Assembly: GCA_036504675.1 (NCBI GenBank)
Contig: DASXUT010000154.1
Span: 1-52,366 of the forward strand
Reading direction: 5' to 3'
DNA length: 52,366 bases
From: Bacillota bacterium
Lineage (GTDB): Bacteria; Bacillota; Sulfobacillia; JAJYWN01; JAJZPE01
Made by a program: the position numbers and the translations under genes. Under the pieces are notes generated by a model that saw only the letters and a list, made by a program, of their open reading frames with translations, did not search any database and had not been told where the DNA came from. Below are positions 5,528 through 18,904 of this stretch, in pieces (position 1 is the first letter of the stretch; every line of letters starts with the position of its first letter).

Positions 5528-6238
5528 CTACCCCGGCACCCCGGCCAGGATCCGGATGTCCTCCAGCCGGACCTGCAGCCCCGCCTCTTTCCGCAACATC
5601 ATGTTGACGAGCCCGGTGTGGTTCAGGTGCATCATGCAGAAGCCGGGCAGGAAGGTGTGCCGGACGCCGAACATGGGCGCCCGTCGCTGCCTTGTCGCCA
5701 TGCCGACGAAGCCCAGCATGTGGTAACCGCCGACATCCTTGACCGGGCGGCCGCGGGCGAAGGCCGGTCCGACGCACCAGGTCTCGAGGACGCCGGTGAC
5801 CGGGTCGGCCTCGATGACCTTAAGCACATGCTGGACGGGGCAACCGGCCCCGAAGGGCCGCCCAAGGACGATGTCGCCTCGGGTGATCCCCCACTTCTCG
5901 ACCAGGTCCCCGCGGAACGGCAGGACGACCTTCCGGGCCGACGGCTCCCCGGGCAGCGGTCCCAGGACAAAGTCCCAGGCGTTGCCGAGGACGTCGGTGG
6001 TGTCGGTGGCGCAGACGGTGGAGATGTCGGCCACGGGTGCCTGAGCCTCGTAGAAGGCGCAATCATCGACGGCCCGCTCGCCCGTGGCCAGCAGGCCGCG
6101 GAACTCCTCGCAGTTGCGGGCGCCGCAGAGGCCGCAGTCCTTTCCGGGCGGGGTCCAGTGGGCGTCGAGGGCGCGGTCCCTTTCGCGGACCCCGTCGCGA
6201 TCCTTTTGGTCCTTTTCGCGGCCCTTTTCGACTTCCAT
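5528..6238 (-). CDS. Uncharacterised 4Fe-4S cluster protein, partner of the upstream GTPase
   Basis: The 236-residue protein has a charged N-terminus (1-27) followed by a cluster-binding motif C35-x2-C38-G-x3-C43-x16-C60. This matches the Fe-S domain found in the corrinoid protein large subunit of the acetyl-CoA synthase system and in RnfB. The rest (about 75-236) is a conserved-looking domain with segments DLVEKWGITRGDIVLGRP, GAGCPVQHVLKV and FLPGFCMMHLNHTG, which I do not recognise as a named enzyme. The start is an ATG one base after the GTPase stop; a longer reading frame upstream overlaps the GTPase and has GTPase-shadow composition. With the GTPase and the ABC ATPase it forms a minus-strand trio. 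A role in metallocofactor assembly or in activating a metalloenzyme is inference from the motif set only. Confidence 0.8.
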   Translation of the reverse strand: MEVEKGREKDQKDRDGVRERDRALDAHWTPPGKDCGLCGARNCEEFRGLLATGERAVDDCAFYEAQAPVADISTVCATDTTDVLGNAWDFVLGPLPGEPSARKVVLPFRGDLVEKWGITRGDIVLGRPFGAGCPVQHVLKVIEADPVTGVLETWCVGPAFARGRPVKDVGGYHMLGFVGMATRQRRAPMFGVRHTFLPGFCMMHLNHTGLVNMMLRKEAGLQVRLEDIRILAGVPG

Positions 6239-6239
6239 C

Positions 6240-6950
6240 TCATTCGCCCCTGAAGAGGTACTCGGCGGCCGCGCCGTCGAGCCGGCGGACCACGCCGAAG
6301 TGGTGTTGCCAGCCGATCTCTTTCTTGCCGACGCAGAGGGTGCAGGTGCCGAGGGGCGGCACGCCTCGCAACAACAGGCCCTTGGGGTCAATGTCCGGCG
6401 ACTGGGCGATGAGATCGTAGAGCTTTTGGAGGGACGTGCCCTGGAGGGCGTTGGTCTCGAAGATGCGGATGCTCGGGTGAACCTCGCGGATCTTCTGCAG
6501 AAAGACTTCCCGCTCGGCTTGGCCGACGAGATCGATCTTGGTGACCACGGCGATGTCGGCCAGGCTGACCATGGACCCCATCTTCAGCGGGCTCTGGATG
6601 CCGGAGATGGCCGACAGGATGATGATTCCGAGCCCCTGGTTCAGGTATGGCGTGCAGCGTAGGCAGAGCCCCGCGCTCTCGACCATGAGCAGGTCGGCCT
6701 GATTCCTCTGGGCCCATTCGATCGCATCACCCAGGACCATCACCCCGGCGTGGTCTGGACAGAGGTCGCCGGAGTAGATCTTGGAGGTCAGGATGCCGAA
6801 CTCCGCCGCCAGCTCTTCATCTTCAAAGGCCTTGACCACGTCGATCTTGAGGAAAGCCAGGCGGCGCTGCTTGTGGAAGCGGGCGGTGACCTGCTTCAAG
6901 AGGGCCGTCTTGCCGGCCGACGGCGGCCCGGCGACGATCAGCAATTGCAC
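6240..6950 (-). CDS. HypB/CobW-like P-loop GTPase with Cys motifs
   Basis: This 236-residue protein has the P-loop GPPSAGKT (8-15), a TKID guanine-specificity motif (137-140), and several cysteines at positions expected for metal handling: GDLC (C64), ESAGLCLRC (C96, C99) and TCTLC (C203, C206). The family of SIMIBI GTPases (HypB, UreG, CobW) delivers nickel, cobalt or zinc to enzymes. The C-terminal CxxC with following GW and His pair is not typical of HypB. It starts at GTG with AAGGAAGGTG upstream. It follows an ABC ATPase gene after 115 bases that hold a strong hairpin, and it is coupled to the Fe-S protein gene (TGA, one base, ATG). Function is inferred, not established. Confidence 0.85.
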   Translation of the reverse strand: MQLLIVAGPPSAGKTALLKQVTARFHKQRRLAFLKIDVVKAFEDEELAAEFGILTSKIYSGDLCPDHAGVMVLGDAIEWAQRNQADLLMVESAGLCLRCTPYLNQGLGIIILSAISGIQSPLKMGSMVSLADIAVVTKIDLVGQAEREVFLQKIREVHPSIRIFETNALQGTSLQKLYDLIAQSPDIDPKGLLLRGVPPLGTCTLCVGKKEIGWQHHFGVVRRLDGAAAEYLFRGE

Positions 6951-6999
6951 GTCGACACCTTCCTTACTCGGGGATTGAGTTCAATCGGCCGGTGAGAAC

Positions 7000-7029
7000 G
7001 GTCGGACCCCGGGGGCCGGGGGTCCGACC
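7000..7029 (-). other. Strong hairpin between the ABC ATPase and GTPase genes
   Basis: GGTCGGACCCC (7000-7010) and GGGGTCCGACC (7019-7029) form a perfect 11-bp stem with a nine-base loop. No T tract follows on the minus strand (GTTCTCACC), so this is not a clear intrinsic terminator. It may be an RNA-processing or transcript-stability element that sets relative expression of the two genes. Confidence 0.55.
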
Positions 7030-7065
7030 TGGCTCGCACCGGACCGGCTGGGTCGCTATTCAGTT

Positions 7066-7830
7066 CTAGATGACCTCGTTGCAGAGCGATAGGCCGGCGC
7101 GCAGTTTCTCGCGGGCGGCAATCAGCCGCCGGTCCAAGGATATCAGCGTCTCGGCGGCCGGTCGCTCGGCGTCGTCACGTTCAAGGATCTTGACCACACC
7201 TCCGTTGGCGAAGACGATTCGCTTATGGGTCAGGATGGCGATGACCGGGTCGTGGGTGACGAAGACGATCATCTTGTTGGCCCGACGGACCGTGTCGACG
7301 ACCTCTTGCTTGAAGATCCCGGCGTTCTCGATCTCGTCGAGGAGGATGACCGGGGCCGCGCAGATGTGAAGGGCGTCGGCGATCATCAGGGACCGGGTCT
7401 GCCCGCCGGACAGGGTGGTGATCCGCATCATCGGCCCGATCTTCTCGCCGGTGAACTGGTTGGCCAGGTCGATCGTCTCATCGATGAGGCCATCCAATGG
7501 CAATCTGCGGGCCCGAGCGTGGGTCGCCAGGAAGTCCTTGACCGTGAGGTCGGTGAAGCACTTGGTGTTCTGGGTGATCATCGCCACGGGCTTGCGGGCC
7601 GGGTCCTGCCGCCAATCCTCGTCGGGGACCCCCCCGTCGATGAGGACCTGACGGCCGGTGGCCGTATCCTTCTGGGCCAGGAGCTCGATGTCGGTGATGA
7701 AGGCCGTCTTGCCGCTGCCGGTCGGCCCGACGATGGAGACGATCTCGCCAACTCGCAGGTCCAGACGCGAAAAATTTTCCCGGCGACCATCCTTGGTGGT
7801 CCCGGGAAGAATGCTGAGCTCCTGAAGCAT
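7066..7830 (-). CDS. ABC-type ATPase without a permease
   Basis: The 254-residue protein is an ABC ATPase: Walker A GPTGSGKT (35-42), signature LSGGQ (140-144), Walker B VILLDE (161-166), His switch VTHD (H193), and an N-terminal extension (1-30) unlike that of transporter subunits. No membrane protein gene is adjacent, so it may be a soluble ATPase that works with the downstream GTPase and Fe-S protein, rather than a transporter component. The start is the ATG with GGGAGTG about 6 bases upstream; a 12-codon upstream extension exists but lacks a site. It is divergent from the AsnB-CofE fusion gene across 294 bases. The precise role is unknown. Confidence 0.85.
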   Translation of the reverse strand: MLQELSILPGTTKDGRRENFSRLDLRVGEIVSIVGPTGSGKTAFITDIELLAQKDTATGRQVLIDGGVPDEDWRQDPARKPVAMITQNTKCFTDLTVKDFLATHARARRLPLDGLIDETIDLANQFTGEKIGPMMRITTLSGGQTRSLMIADALHICAAPVILLDEIENAGIFKQEVVDTVRRANKMIVFVTHDPVIAILTHKRIVFANGGVVKILERDDAERPAAETLISLDRRLIAAREKLRAGLSLCNEVI

Positions 7831-8124
7831 TGGAATCACTCCCGTTATGTCATTTTTTAGTTCCAACTTATGAAGCCTTAGTCCCGGGGGTGCGAAAAAC
7901 GGGACGGATGCCTAGGGATCGGGGCCCGCGGAACCTTCGAGTCGGCAGGGAACGTCGCCTCAACCTCGAACGTCAATATGACTGCAGATGCCTCGCCGGC
8001 CAAGGCGGTCGGAACGCGGCGGCAGCCTGGGTTAGTTCTGACGTTTGTTATGTAAAGGCCGATGTGATAAAGTAATTTGGTTGAGGCTCATCTTTTTCTT
8101 TGCATTGTTTCGGAGGTGTCAGCG

Positions 8125-10875
8125 ATGTGTGGAATCTACGGCTTTCTTGGTCAGCCAAATAGTGGCCTATTGAACCGAATGGGCAAGGTCCTCGTCCACC
8201 GCGGGCCGGACGACGTCGGTTCGCTCGAGCTGCCCTGGATCAGCCTGGGTCATCGCCGGCTGTCCATCATCGACCTGGCCACCGGCCATCAGCCGCTGGC
8301 CAACGAGGATGAGACGGTTTGGTTGGTCTATAACGGCGAGGTCTACAATTACCGCGAATTGCGGGCCGAGCTGGTCGAGCGTGGTCATGTCTTCAAGACC
8401 AACAGCGACAGCGAGGTCATCGTCCACGCCTATGAAGAATACGGCCCCGACTGCTTCAAGGGCTTCAACGGCATGTGGGCGGTGGTCCTGGCCGACCTCC
8501 GCCGGAACCGGCTGATCCTGGCCCGCGACCACTTCGGGATCAAACCCCTGTACTACACCATCGCCGGCGGCCGGCTCCTCTTCGCCTCGGAGATCAAGGC
8601 CCTTCTTCAGGATCCCTCGGCGCCATCCCGACCGAACGACCAGATGGTCTACGAGTACCTTGTCCACGGTCTCCACGACCACAAGCCAGAGACCTTCTTC
8701 GAGGGCATCTATCACCTGATGCCGGCGACCTACGCCGAGATCGACGGGGCGGCCATGGCCGCTCTGTCGGACGGAGAGGGCCTGGCTGCGCGGGCCGTCA
8801 CCTATTGGACGCCAGAGCTCAGCGAGGACGGCTCGGCCGACCCCGACGAGTTCCGCCGGCTCTTCGAGAAGACCGTGGAGCGCCGCTTGGTGGCCGAAGT
8901 GCCGGTCGGCTCGTGCCTGTCCGGCGGCCTCGACTCGACGTCCATCGTCAGCTTCATGAGCGGCCTTTTGAAGTCCCAGACGCCCGACGCGGCCTCGTTG
9001 CGCGGGCAGCTGAAGACGTTCTCCGCCGTCTTCGACAACGATCCCATTGATGAGCGGGACTACATCGCCGAAGCCGTCAAGGCCACCGGCGCCGACACCA
9101 CCTACATCCGTCCGACCTCGGAGGACTTCGTCGAGGAGCTCCGCGACTTCATCTGGCATCAGGAGGAGCCCCTCATCAGCACCGGGCCTTACGCCCAGTG
9201 GTGCGTCATGCGCGAGGCACGGAAGCAGGTCACCGTCCTCCTCGACGGGCAGGGCGGCGACGAACTGCTCGCCGGATACGTCCCCTATCAGTACGTCTAC
9301 CTGGCTCAGCTTTGGAAGGAAAGGAAGTACGGGAGATTCCTCCGCGAAGTCTGGGCGGCCAGGGATGTCCTCAAGCCGCTCCTCACCCGGCGGCTGCGCG
9401 ATCGCCGGAAGGGCTTCCCCCTGCGCAGCCTGCTGCGCAAGGAGTTCACCGACCGGGTCGTCGACCCGGGCTACACCCGCTCGCGGAACAACCTGAAGCT
9501 CCGTCTGCTCCAGGACCTGACCACCTACAGCCTGCCGTGCCTGCTGCGCTACGAGGACAAGAACTCGATGGCCCACTCGCTCGAGTCCCGCGTGCCTTAC
9601 CTGGACCAGGAACTCGTCGAGTGGATCCTCCGGCTGCCGTCCGACGTCATCATCCGCGACGGCTGGAGCCGCTGGATCCTGCGCACCGGGCTGAAGGGCG
9701 TGCTCCCCGAGAAGATCCGGCGACGCCGCTGGAAGGTCGGGTTCACGACCCCCGAGATCCGTTGGATCAAGGCCCGGCGGGCCGCCTTCACCAGCCTTCT
9801 TCGGTCGCCGTCCTTCGCCAACCGACCCTACTGGGACGGCGAAGCGGTGGCCCGCGCCTTCCTGGCCGCCAACCGGGGTAAGATCGACTTCTCCATGTTC
9901 TTCTGGCGGGTCATCAACGTCGAGTTGTGGCTGCGCGAATTTATCGACGCCCGGGCGGTCGACGAGCTCATCGCGGCCGAGCCTGGGGCCGGCGCCGCCC
10001 GGACCGCGCCCAATCAGGCCGCGCTCGATGAGGCCGCCGAAGCCGTGGCGGCGGTGGCGGCGACGGCCGAGACCAGCCCCACCCGGGGGCGCCTGGCCGA
10101 CCTCGGCGACCGGCTGGCCGTCAGGCTGACCGGCACCGGCGAGGCCGCCCGGCTGGCCGAGACCTATCGCCCCAACGCCGGCAAGCACCTCTTCGCCGCC
10201 GTCGGCGGACGGGTCTACGCCCGCCTGCCGGTCAAGACCGGCATCGTTAAGTCCGGCGACGACCTGGTCGCCTTCTTCAAGGAGTCCGTCGGCCGTCACG
10301 TGCAGCCGGGCGACATCGTCGTGATCGCCGAGAAGCCCGTGGCCATCAGCCAGGGCCGGTCCTTCCCGATCGAGGAGATCGAAGTGACCTGGCTGGCCAA
10401 GGCCCTCTCCAAGGCGGTCACCAAGACGCCGCACGGCATCGGCCTGGGCATCCCCCAGACCATGCAGTTGGCTTTGAACGAGGCCGGCGCGCCCAGGATC
10501 CTTCTGGCCACGGCGGTCTCCGCCGTCGCCAGGGTCTTCGGCCGCCGCGGGATCTTCTACAAGATCGCCGGTCCGACGGTCGAGGCCATCGACGGCCCGA
10601 CCCCCGGGACCCTGCCACCGTACAATCGCCAGGCCAAGCTCGGACCGAAGGACCCCATGGACGTCGCGGCGAAGCTGGCGGCGGCCATCGGCCCGCAGGT
10701 TGGGGTGGCCATCATCGACGCCAGCGACCTCACCGCCGACGTCCTCGGTCACGCGGCCGGGGTCGACCCGAGACTGGTCGAGACCTTGATGCGGGACAAC
10801 CCGCTCGGCCAGGGCCACCAACAGACGCCCATCGCCATCCTGCGCGAGGTGGGGCGCCTGGCGGCCGTGGCCTGA
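8125..10875 (+). CDS. asnB: Asparagine synthetase (glutamine-hydrolysing) fused to a CofE-like domain
   Basis: The 916-residue product begins MCGIYGF, giving the N-terminal nucleophile Cys of the class II glutaminase domain (about 1-200) after Met removal. This fixes the start at the ATG six bases after GGAGGTG. The synthetase domain follows with the pyrophosphatase loop SGGLDS (266-271), ending near 606. After an Ala-rich linker (about 612-675) comes a C-terminal domain of about 235 residues containing GDDLVAFF, QPGDIVVIAEKPVAISQGR and NPLGQGHQQTP. This matches the CofE-like family (F420-0:gamma-glutamyl ligase, PF01996) found as a separate protein in other Bacillota. Ordinary AsnB proteins stop at about 610-640 residues. 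The fusion joins two amide-forming activities; the joint substrate is unknown. A terminator follows at 10989. Confidence 0.9.
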   Translation: MCGIYGFLGQPNSGLLNRMGKVLVHRGPDDVGSLELPWISLGHRRLSIIDLATGHQPLANEDETVWLVYNGEVYNYRELRAELVERGHVFKTNSDSEVIVHAYEEYGPDCFKGFNGMWAVVLADLRRNRLILARDHFGIKPLYYTIAGGRLLFASEIKALLQDPSAPSRPNDQMVYEYLVHGLHDHKPETFFEGIYHLMPATYAEIDGAAMAALSDGEGLAARAVTYWTPELSEDGSADPDEFRRLFEKTVERRLVAEVPVGSCLSGGLDSTSIVSFMSGLLKSQTPDAASLRGQLKTFSAVFDNDPIDERDYIAEAVKATGADTTYIRPTSEDFVEELRDFIWHQEEPLISTGPYAQWCVMREARKQVTVLLDGQGGDELLAGYVPYQYVYLAQLWKERKYGRFLREVWAARDVLKPLLTRRLRDRRKGFPLRSLLRKEFTDRVVDPGYTRSRNNLKLRLLQDLTTYSLPCLLRYEDKNSMAHSLESRVPYLDQELVEWILRLPSDVIIRDGWSRWILRTGLKGVLPEKIRRRRWKVGFTTPEIRWIKARRAAFTSLLRSPSFANRPYWDGEAVARAFLAANRGKIDFSMFFWRVINVELWLREFIDARAVDELIAAEPGAGAARTAPNQAALDEAAEAVAAVAATAETSPTRGRLADLGDRLAVRLTGTGEAARLAETYRPNAGKHLFAAVGGRVYARLPVKTGIVKSGDDLVAFFKESVGRHVQPGDIVVIAEKPVAISQGRSFPIEEIEVTWLAKALSKAVTKTPHGIGLGIPQTMQLALNEAGAPRILLATAVSAVARVFGRRGIFYKIAGPTVEAIDGPTPGTLPPYNRQAKLGPKDPMDVAAKLAAAIGPQVGVAIIDASDLTADVLGHAAGVDPRLVETLMRDNPLGQGHQQTPIAILREVGRLAAVA

Positions 10876-16635: not shown

Positions 16636-16765
16636 CCGAACCAACCTCCCCGATTTATCTTCCGGTTCATAATATTACGAATGTTGGGGCCGGAATCCTG
16701 CTGGTAATAGGAGCGGATTGCGGAGTTTGTCATAAAGACAGGAAAAGGCCCCGACCATGGCAGGC

Positions 16766-16797
16766 AAAAGCCCGGCAGGGGATGTCCCCGCCGGGCT
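16766..16797 (-). terminator. Rho-independent terminator at the end of the low-GC cassette
   Basis: On the minus strand AGCCCGGC (16790-16797) and GCCGGGCT (16769-16776) enclose an inner GGGGACATCCCC hairpin and are followed by TTTTGCC. It lies 26 bases after the stop of the 51-residue protein gene and closes the cassette transcription unit. Confidence 0.8.
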
Positions 16798-16822
16798 ACA
16801 GATTCTACTAAGCAGTGGTAAC

Positions 16823-16978
16823 TCATTCACTTGAGCCTTGAACAGTTGTCATCTCTGGGGCCGGCGCCGCAGAAACCGGAGTCAAGATGTACGAGATGTG
16901 GACCGCGCTAACCTCTCTGGACTTGCCCCCCAAGAGTACCGTATCTCCGCCCACTTGAATTGACCCGTCAATTGACAC
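16823..16978 (-). CDS. Small protein of 51 residues, last gene of the SecB-like cassette
   Basis: The frame begins at GTG one base after the stop of the nuclease-like gene (TAA-T-GTG) and ends at TGA before a terminator. The N-terminal part, SIDGSIQVGGDTVLLGGKS, suggests beta strands and a turn; the C-terminal part is Pro/Ala-rich (TPVSAAPAPE). I do not recognise the family. Spacing and the position inside a tight operon make it a likely real gene despite its length. It could be an antitoxin or accessory subunit, but nothing in the sequence proves that. An ATG in another frame two bases earlier gives only a 32-codon frame without operon logic. Confidence 0.5.
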   Translation of the reverse strand: MSIDGSIQVGGDTVLLGGKSREVSAVHISYILTPVSAAPAPEMTTVQGSSE

Positions 16979-16979
16979 A

Positions 16980-17717
16980 TTATGCCAGTCTACGTACATC
17001 AAACCTCAATTCCGGTATGTCTTCACGCGCAAGCCAGCTTAGTTGGGCGTAAGATCTCCTTAGGCCGGAGAAAGGCCCCCCAGTCTCAAAGACACCTTTG
17101 CTTGCCAGTGTTATCCCACCTACTTCGGTATCGAAACCAATGGCCGTGATCTCTGCCTTCAACAGAGCCAGATAGTCGCAACAATCGGTGGAAAATAAGC
17201 TGGGCGAAACCTTTACCTCCAGGAGAACGCCGCTCTTAGGGCCTTCTTTGATGCCGCCGACATCGATTGTCGACTTTCCCTTGTGCTTGACGGTCTTACC
17301 ATCAATCTTGACTAGAGGATTGTCCGCGAACTGGCAACCGTCGCCAGCAAACCTGCTGCTAAGCGGATCAATAACTAGTCTTTCTGCTAAGCGCCCTCTG
17401 AGCCTACCCAGGTAATCATCCTCAGATAAGTCGCGCTGCCCATGAGGAGAGTCATATAGCTGTTCAACTAGCCGAAGGAAATCTTGGAGATACTGCTTCT
17501 CGCTATTTGGCAGGACTGACCCGCGAAGCCTCTTCTTGTGTCCAGGCCATTCAGAGGCAAAATTGGCCATAGTCTTGATCTTGAAAACCACATCAAGCAA
17601 AGACTCCAGGAAATCTGGATGAATCTTTAGGAATGAGATTAACCTGGAAAGTGATGGCTGACTATCGACCTCCTGAACTGCCCTAAATTGTGCAACCAAC
17701 TGAACCCGACTAGTCAT
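16980..17717 (-). CDS. Probable PD-(D/E)XK-fold nuclease in the SecB-like cassette
   Basis: The 245-residue protein starts at ATG overlapping the SecB-like gene stop by 8 nt (ATGACTAG). The N-terminal half is helical. At 149-172 it contains STIDVGG followed 15 residues later by GVLLEVKVSP, that is D152 ... E168-x-K170, the spacing expected of a PD-(D/E)XK catalytic core, with E112 in AERLVID as a possible upstream acid. The segment CCDYLALLKAEITAIGFDTE then resembles the helix following the core. Restriction enzymes, Card1-like and many defence nucleases share this fold. The match is by motif only, and no target-recognition domain is evident. GC is much lower than in the neighbouring housekeeping genes. 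Confidence 0.55.
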   Translation of the reverse strand: MTSRVQLVAQFRAVQEVDSQPSLSRLISFLKIHPDFLESLLDVVFKIKTMANFASEWPGHKKRLRGSVLPNSEKQYLQDFLRLVEQLYDSPHGQRDLSEDDYLGRLRGRLAERLVIDPLSSRFAGDGCQFADNPLVKIDGKTVKHKGKSTIDVGGIKEGPKSGVLLEVKVSPSLFSTDCCDYLALLKAEITAIGFDTEVGGITLASKGVFETGGPFSGLRRSYAQLSWLAREDIPELRFDVRRLA

Positions 17718-18174
17718 CGCTCTTCCCCGTCGGATTTGATTCCCGCGAACGTTCAATGTTCTTAGAGGTCTGGAAAACATCGATGAGGGGTATTAGTAAC
17801 GGTGAAAGCCCCATCCTCATGGTGATATTGGCCACCAATTCTCGAGTGAACGGAAAAAGTAGCGCGAGAGCCTGGTTTGCCACAAATTCCCGGAATCCCT
17901 GGGCATCACTCCCGGGCTCGGTACTACAGTGTCCGGCAATCGTTAGTCTAAGACCAACGGCTTGCCGATCGCCTTGTTTAGCAGCTATATCTAATGTCAG
18001 GCTACAATGCCCCTCGGTGTCGGAAACAACCTTCCCGTCTGCCTCAGCCTTAATGGATACATCTAGGTGGTCCAATGCTTCATCTGAATAAAGCTTACAC
18101 TCTAGCTCTTTGAGCAACACCTTGGTGAGCTGAACCCGGTGAGGCACTATGTGTTGCTGTACCTCAGGCGACAT
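17710..18174 (-). CDS. SecB-like chaperone
   Basis: This 154-residue protein ends its core with ANQALALLFPFTRELVANIT (101-118), then MRMGLSPLLIPLIDVFQTSK. This closely matches the C-terminal SecB pattern LLFPFAREL...RGGFPPLLLPPVNF. The preceding part has the SecB-type strands LDVSIKAEAD, CSLTLDIAAK and VGLRLTIAG. SecB binds unfolded clients; outside Proteobacteria, SecB-like proteins usually occur in toxin-antitoxin-chaperone modules. The ATG at 18174 overlaps the upstream gene by 11 nt and has AAGGACG upstream. A C-terminal tail (138-154) is charged. No secA or secretion gene is adjacent, so a dedicated client within the cassette is the better guess. Confidence 0.75.
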   Translation of the reverse strand: MSPEVQQHIVPHRVQLTKVLLKELECKLYSDEALDHLDVSIKAEADGKVVSDTEGHCSLTLDIAAKQGDRQAVGLRLTIAGHCSTEPGSDAQGFREFVANQALALLFPFTRELVANITMRMGLSPLLIPLIDVFQTSKNIERSRESNPTGKSDD

Positions 18175-18748
18175 TAGCCCACGTCCTTGTTTCCATAGCG
18201 TCAGCAGCCCTGGTGGATGGGTGTCCACCGTAGAAACAAAATGTGGGTTGATGTAAGGCAGGTTTAAGGTCGAACGATATCGACACATTAACTGCGGCAA
18301 GGTTTTGGATATGCTCCAACACGAGGTACTTCGAACGGAGAAGTCCAGTTTTCTTCAGCCCGGAATGCAACTGCTCAAGCGCCTCTATGAGCCAAAACCA
18401 TCTATCATCAACGCTTGTTGCACCTTCCATCAAGTAACTCATATACTCAACCAGGCCAATGAGATCGACTAGCTCCTCCTCTCGGTCTACCACAATTTGA
18501 TCCGTGCATTCCTCGATTATCGAGGTGCCAGTCGAATTGTACCAACTGGCAAACTCGGGGTGGACTGCAATAACCTCTGCCACAAAACCCGCGTGCTTCT
18601 TTACAAAATCATCGAGGACTTGTCGCCCGACGTCTCTCAAAGAAGACTCCTGCCCTGGGCCAAACTTTGATGGGGTTATCCACTTGAAAAGCTCAGTCGC
18701 ATCCCCATACTGCTTAACCCAATTGATGAGAACTTTGGTAAAGGCCAT
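18164..18748 (-). CDS. Helical protein of unknown function, first gene of the SecB-like cassette
   Basis: The 194-residue product starts at ATG with GGAGGG eight bases upstream. It appears mainly helical, acidic in the middle (DREEELVDLIGLVEYMSYLM) and without membrane segments or obvious catalytic motif. Three Trp residues occur near the N-terminus and centre. I do not recognise the family. It overlaps the SecB-like gene by 11 nt, so both are translated from the same transcript. It could be a toxin, an antitoxin that is the chaperone client, or a structural partner. The last 40 residues lie just upstream of the SecB-like start and have a less regular composition, so a local frame error there cannot be excluded. 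Confidence 0.65.
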   Translation of the reverse strand: MAFTKVLINWVKQYGDATELFKWITPSKFGPGQESSLRDVGRQVLDDFVKKHAGFVAEVIAVHPEFASWYNSTGTSIIEECTDQIVVDREEELVDLIGLVEYMSYLMEGATSVDDRWFWLIEALEQLHSGLKKTGLLRSKYLVLEHIQNLAAVNVSISFDLKPALHQPTFCFYGGHPSTRAADAMETRTWANVA

Positions 18749-18904
18749 TAGCTCACCCTCCGTCCCAGAGTATTCCCGGGACTCACGCATATGACACTCC
18801 ATGGCCAGACACTGCTGCGCAAGATTAGGACAAGAGAAGACCGCCGGTCCTAGGAATCCTCTGATCTAACCGTTTGCCTCAAAAACCCCATACTCTATAT
18901 CGTT

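Follow-up and report, generated by a model that had tools for sequence, protein, structure and literature searches.

What role is served by three soluble proteins with ATPase, GTPase and iron-sulfur signatures whose genes lie together? The question is raised by the stretch of 52,366 nucleotides analyzed here (the window), which constitutes contig C154 in the genome assembly of a Bacillota bacterium (3.28 Mb in 199 contigs, 96% complete). The three genes (the trio) form a tandem on the minus strand at positions 5528-7830, in the order ATPase, GTPase and [4Fe-4S] protein (the Fe-S protein):

7066 to 7830, minus strand (read 7830-7066): ABC-type ATPase, predicted to be soluble; ATG start, 254 aa
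6951 to 7065, minus strand: 115-nt spacer separating the ATPase gene from the GTPase gene and containing a strong hairpin; RNA fold energy -57.3 kcal/mol, z -4.62 versus shuffles
6240 to 6950, minus strand (read 6950-6240): HypB/UreG-like GTPase; GTG start, 236 aa
5528 to 6238, minus strand (read 6238-5528): Fe-S protein; ATG start directly after the GTPase stop codon, 236 aa

The three genes and their closest relatives

The sequence-only reading had recognized an ATPase, a GTPase and an Fe-S protein encoded together, which is confirmed by reading frames at these positions and by Pfam matches above the cut-offs, namely ABC_tran for the ATPase (59 bits, cut-off 25), cobW (the CobW/HypB/UreG family) for the GTPase (52 bits, cut-off 20.7), and FeS (PF04060) for the Fe-S protein (31 bits, cut-off 23). 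None of the NCBIfam models listed for these proteins was at or above its own cut-off. The arms of the spacer hairpin (GGTCGGACCCC/GGGGTCCGACC, minus strand) have no match in Rfam, and the hairpin is possibly a regulatory element. Two other features of the window were observed. An unusual 932-aa fusion of an asparagine synthetase (AsnB type) and a C-terminal F420-0:gamma-glutamyl ligase-like domain is encoded on the plus strand at 8077-10875, and the region 16645-18904, located between an AMP-ligase-like gene and an rpoD-like gene, has a GC content of about 55% (about 65% around it) and contains three minus-strand ORFs of atypical composition, which may represent a recently acquired island.

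The motifs of the ATPase are complete (Walker A GPTGSGKT, signature LSGGQTRS, Walker B LLDE, and H-loop THD), and its family profile retrieved no PDB chain at E<=1e-15. Such motifs would also be expected if the ATPase were the nucleotide-binding subunit of an ABC transporter (for sulfite, sulfonate or a metal) whose permease is encoded elsewhere in the genome. However, as had been noticed from the sequence, there is no permease gene within the operon, either in the window or at the other loci read, a clear difference from ABC transporters. Moreover, the constant partners of the ATPase are soluble proteins and its best NCBIfam transporter match is far under the cut-off, which makes a transporter improbable.

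The GTPase resembles the HypB and UreG nickel GTPases in its P-loop and fold (best Foldseek match HypB 2hf8, E 2.5e-10). Its metal-binding candidates are a CPxH motif (C64, H67), which resembles the CPH of UreG, a C96xxC99 pair, and a C-terminal tail CTxCxGKKxxGW (C203, C206, H217). The five cysteines, already pointed out in the sequence-only reading, are invariant in 36 homologues, as are H67 and H217. C64, which is located in the G-domain, aligns with the metal cysteine of HypB; in HypB, this G-domain cysteine is a metal ligand. In contrast to HypB and UreG, the GTPase has no N-terminal metal motif but carries the additional C96xxC99 pair and the C-terminal CxxC tail, and it scores below the equivalog cut-offs of both (HypB, 69 bits versus 121; UreG, 29 versus 204). 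A stray hydrogenase-maturation locus would be conceivable in that HypB is the nearest named family, but this is contradicted by the gene context (no hydrogenase, urease or hyp genes among the annotated neighbors of the trio), by the score and by the very long branch that separates trio GTPases from HypB in the GTPase tree, and we consider it extremely unlikely.

The Fe-S protein consists of an N-terminal [4Fe-4S] domain of the type found in corrinoid iron-sulfur proteins (CFeSP) followed by a C-terminal beta-rich domain. The proposed motif of the first domain (C35-x2-C38-x4-C43-x16-C60) is exact and invariant in the 36 homologues, whereas four more invariant residues in the second half of the protein (C133, H137, C201, and H207), which are metal-ligand candidates, had been missed. 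The first domain resembles that of AcsC/CdhE, the large subunit of the corrinoid iron-sulfur protein (2ycl, 40 residues, 1.6 A, Z 3.9; family profile versus 4djd, E 6e-5). The family profile matches AcsC over the Fe-S domain only: the Fe-S protein (236 aa) has neither the TIM barrel nor the corrinoid-binding domain of AcsC/CdhE, and its C-terminal domain is dissimilar. The predicted structure of this C-terminal domain is confident (pLDDT mostly >90), and a fold search yielded no PDB match above Z 4.3 and no Foldseek E value better than 0.3. Such weak matches to a predicted model do not prove a new fold, and since no PDB match is clear, the structure gives no function.

Conservation of the trio and its gene context in archaea

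Orthologous trios are present in Clostridia/Bacillota assemblies and in Methanomicrobiales. A profile of the Fe-S protein, run against 398 sampled genomes of the phylum to which the window belongs, identified full-length orthologues (E<1e-90) in 25, and the gene was found in 48 of 196 genomes from the phylum of a Methanoculleus assembly. Weak matches (E>1e-7) in about 220 other Bacillota form a clearly distinct group; they reflect only the common 4Fe-4S motif and were discarded, and no trio homologue was detected in viral contigs. All 24 fetched bacterial loci have ATPase-GTPase-FeS in this order and on a single strand, with the ATPase gene truncated at the end of the contig in one of them. 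The archaeal loci read agree with this, except that in the archaeon G449 a NifS-like cysteine desulfurase gene is inserted between the GTPase and Fe-S genes (L145, 8965-10128). Gene calls in the fetched loci were made by a simple script and are supported by homology, and many of the genomes are draft assemblies. The window proteins share about 48-55% (ATPase), 60-65% (GTPase) and 42-58% (Fe-S protein) identity with their Methanomicrobiales homologues. In the GTPase tree, bacterial trios form one clade inside the archaeal diversity, a topology consistent with one ancient transfer. The co-occurrence on which the sequence-only reading depended is thus found in both Bacillota and methanogens, and the trio is a real module, more than a chance association. 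In one branch of methanogens, the Fe-S protein is extended at its C terminus (286 aa; L007, 3676-4533, and L143, 9189-10049).

Examination of archaeal neighborhoods revealed two arrangements. In Methanomicrobiales, genes for cysteate synthase (TIGR03844, 582 bits) and sulfopyruvate decarboxylase (TIGR03845/6) follow the trio, at some loci after an intervening gene for MMP16/ComF (TIGR03287, 502 bits). In other archaeal genomes, the genes run cysteate synthase-ATPase-GTPase-FeS-comDE and MMP16 lies beside them. A cysteate synthase gene is located within 2 kb of the Fe-S gene (<=2 kb, same strand) in 41 of the 48 archaeal genomes (23 and 18 for the two arrangements), and cysteate synthase is present in 45 of the 48 compared with 38 of 148 archaea without the Fe-S gene (p 9e-18, a value that ignores kinship). 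A 46th genome (G608) has ComA-ComB-ComDE instead of cysteate synthase, with the trio adjoining MMP16; in the remaining two, G438 and G620, neither ComA nor cysteate synthase was found, and G620 belongs to the branch with the extended Fe-S protein. Cysteate synthase was also above the cut-off in 11 of 12 trio-containing methanogen assemblies from a separate search, a set that overlaps the 48 genomes.

A neighborhood analysis for one consistently associated enzyme class had been suggested earlier, and it does reveal a clear association, with none of the classes then listed but with sulfonate biosynthesis that consumes sulfite (represented in methanogens by cysteate synthase/ComDE/ComF and in Bacillota by ComA). 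Specifically, no gene for CODH/ACS, corrinoid methyltransferase or nitrogenase was seen among the annotated neighbors, and an association with these enzymes was rejected at the neighborhood level. Metal insertion or reductive activation, the role then suggested for the trio, is possible. One form of this idea is that the HypB-like metal chaperone GTPase and the ATPase insert metal into another metalloenzyme found in strict anaerobes (for example CODH/ACS, a corrinoid protein or a sulfite reductase); the link to ComA and cysteate synthase would then be a by-product of lifestyle or, in the case of a sulfite reductase working in reverse, indirect. The HypB/UreG fold and Cys/His motifs of the GTPase and the CFeSP-type Fe-S domain point in this direction, but no such metalloenzyme gene occurs among the annotated neighbors and 41 of 48 archaeal copies are linked to cysteate synthase, and we regard this alternative as unlikely.

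The trio had been considered uncharacterized. No role has been assigned to it, but it is already in print: Chadwick et al. 2025 (PMC12068725, Fig 2B legend) described the frequent co-localization of CoM biosynthesis genes with those of an ATPase, a Ni2+-binding GTPase and a COG2000-domain Fe-S protein, and the module is hence not new. This was the only paper in which we found COG2000 used in the Fe-S/CoM sense. The window trio comprises the same three protein types, and its Methanomicrobia homologues are encoded among or next to the genes for MMP16 (ComF), cysteate synthase and ComDE. Unlike that methanogen trio, it resides in a bacterial host that has ComA but no ComE above the cut-off and no ComF, and it does not adjoin CoM genes. 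We take it to be the bacterial branch of the same module, identifying COG2000 by description and gene position. What is added here comprises the counts of archaeal linkage to cysteate synthase, the association with ComA in Bacillota, and the occurrence of the trio in bacteria without the late CoM steps.

Association with ComA in Bacillota

ComA (PF02679) was detected in 24 of the 25 trio-containing Bacillota and in 112 of the 373 trio-less ones (Fisher 2.7e-11). Shared ancestry inflates this co-occurrence, and of our co-occurrence statistics only a family-level count takes kinship into account: all 12 families with the trio carry ComA, versus roughly 60 of about 141 families (P about 2e-5, or 4e-4 if the family whose trio genome has no ComA is dropped and 11 are counted). 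That genome is G098, for which the search covered ComA alone. Directly upstream of the trio and on the same strand, both comA and comB are located in L068 and L084 (the comB call in L084 relies on clustering with the L068 gene), and comA in L072 and L074. These four loci belong to a single clade of the GTPase tree, and in G292, the fifth member of this clade, the trio and comA each lie at a contig end. Physical linkage to sulfonate or CoM genes was thus observed at 41 of 48 archaeal and four bacterial loci and is absent in the window.

Two comA copies are present in the genome of the window, both on other contigs and away from the trio. One of them (L085, 8135-10531, contig C12) is followed by genes for a 2-hydroxyacid dehydrogenase and a PanD-type aspartate decarboxylase, a cluster that could encode a route from sulfolactate via sulfopyruvate and cysteate to taurine. 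The other (L086, 5814-9061, contig C159) is in tandem with genes for a YeiH-family putative sulfate exporter and a malate/lactate dehydrogenase, an arrangement that might serve sulfonate synthesis and export.

The later CoM enzymes show a different distribution. ComE (sulfopyruvate decarboxylase) was above the cut-off in none of the 25 trio-containing Bacillota (best match in the genome of the window, 109 bits versus 221.5), and the sole COG1900 protein in that genome scores 138 bits for ComF against a cut-off of 364 and is not ComF. Completion of CoM was rejected as the role of the trio on these grounds. It might also be proposed that the trio matures or energizes COG1900 sulfur-insertion enzymes (ComF/MMP16 in methanogens and L-aspartate-semialdehyde sulfurtransferase, L-ASST, in bacteria), for example by loading Fe-S clusters or passing on sulfide. 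In support of this, ComF is encoded directly downstream of the Fe-S gene in many methanogens, and COG1900 proteins are present in 18 of the 25 trio-containing Bacillota (one each) compared with 115 of the 373 others (Fisher 5e-5). However, the trio is absent from many genomes with COG1900, and no COG1900 protein was found at E<=1e-20 in the other seven trio-containing Bacillota, including G128, a one-contig, 99% complete genome with both the trio and ComA. COG1900 (ComF/L-ASST) is a plausible partner in methanogens but was rejected as the general one because of these seven genomes, and we doubt that its maturation is what the trio is for.

A proposed role in sulfite provision or handling

ComA uses phosphoenolpyruvate (PEP) and sulfite, and cysteate synthase uses phosphoserine and sulfite; both enzymes add sulfite to a three-carbon acceptor. 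As the bacteria lack the late CoM steps and 7 of the 25 have no COG1900 protein, what the two domains share is the incorporation of sulfite by ComA or cysteate synthase rather than the completion of CoM or chemistry of the CODH/corrinoid kind. Where these archaea obtain sulfite has been described as unclear, with sulfide oxidation named as a possible source (PMC6286981). On the basis of this shared sulfite-consuming step and its unclear sulfite source, we propose that the trio acts at or around sulfite provision or handling. The association with sulfite-consuming enzymes is firm, and the mechanism is inferred; we hold the proposal tentatively, as the reading we prefer and one that falls somewhat short of probable.

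According to this proposal, a soluble, nucleotide-driven Fe-S module would serve sulfonate biosynthesis where sulfite enters carbon metabolism, i.e., at ComA in bacteria and some archaea and at cysteate synthase in Methanomicrobia. The module may make or deliver sulfite in sulfide-living anaerobes, most of which have no APS/PAPS reductase. The three proteins would constitute a metal-bearing, nucleotide-gated complex, in which the Fe-S protein might carry sulfur and electrons, the GTPase with its CxxC and CPxH motifs might hold a metal and control the handover, which the ATPase might energize. The sulfur could originate from sulfide or from the persulfide of a cysteine desulfurase, which is a guess; the desulfurase gene inserted in the G449 operon is a hint of the latter from one locus. 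The exact chemistry proposed here is considerably less certain than the general role and is, in our estimation, rather doubtful. Still less likely is the most specific version, in which the trio is an oxygen-independent, ATP/GTP-driven sulfite maker that starts from sulfide or persulfide and supplies sulfonate synthesis; none of the trio proteins resembles a known sulfite-forming enzyme. If the trio supplies sulfite, genomes with it should be without APS/PAPS reductase more often than trio-less ComA genomes. APS reductase matches of >100 bits were found in 1 of 25 trio-containing genomes versus 12 of 55 ComA-positive genomes without the trio, a borderline difference in the predicted direction (p 0.054), and the enzyme is also absent from most of the latter. 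In our samples, 112 ComA-positive Bacillota and 38 cysteate synthase-positive archaea have no trio; either enzyme can thus be present without the trio, which is not universally needed.

Biological methane formation depends on coenzyme M, whose sulfonate group derives from sulfite. The trio, which occurs in methanogenic archaea and in some anaerobic bacteria, is almost entirely confined to genomes that make sulfonates out of sulfite. Its presence in bacteria that have ComA and none of the later CoM enzymes implies that its role is separable from CoM as such and directs attention to the step in which sulfite is consumed, and through the trio the question of where methanogens obtain sulfite becomes directly testable. 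If the trio does make sulfite, it would explain how methanogens and sulfide-living anaerobes acquire sulfite for coenzyme M and sulfolactate.
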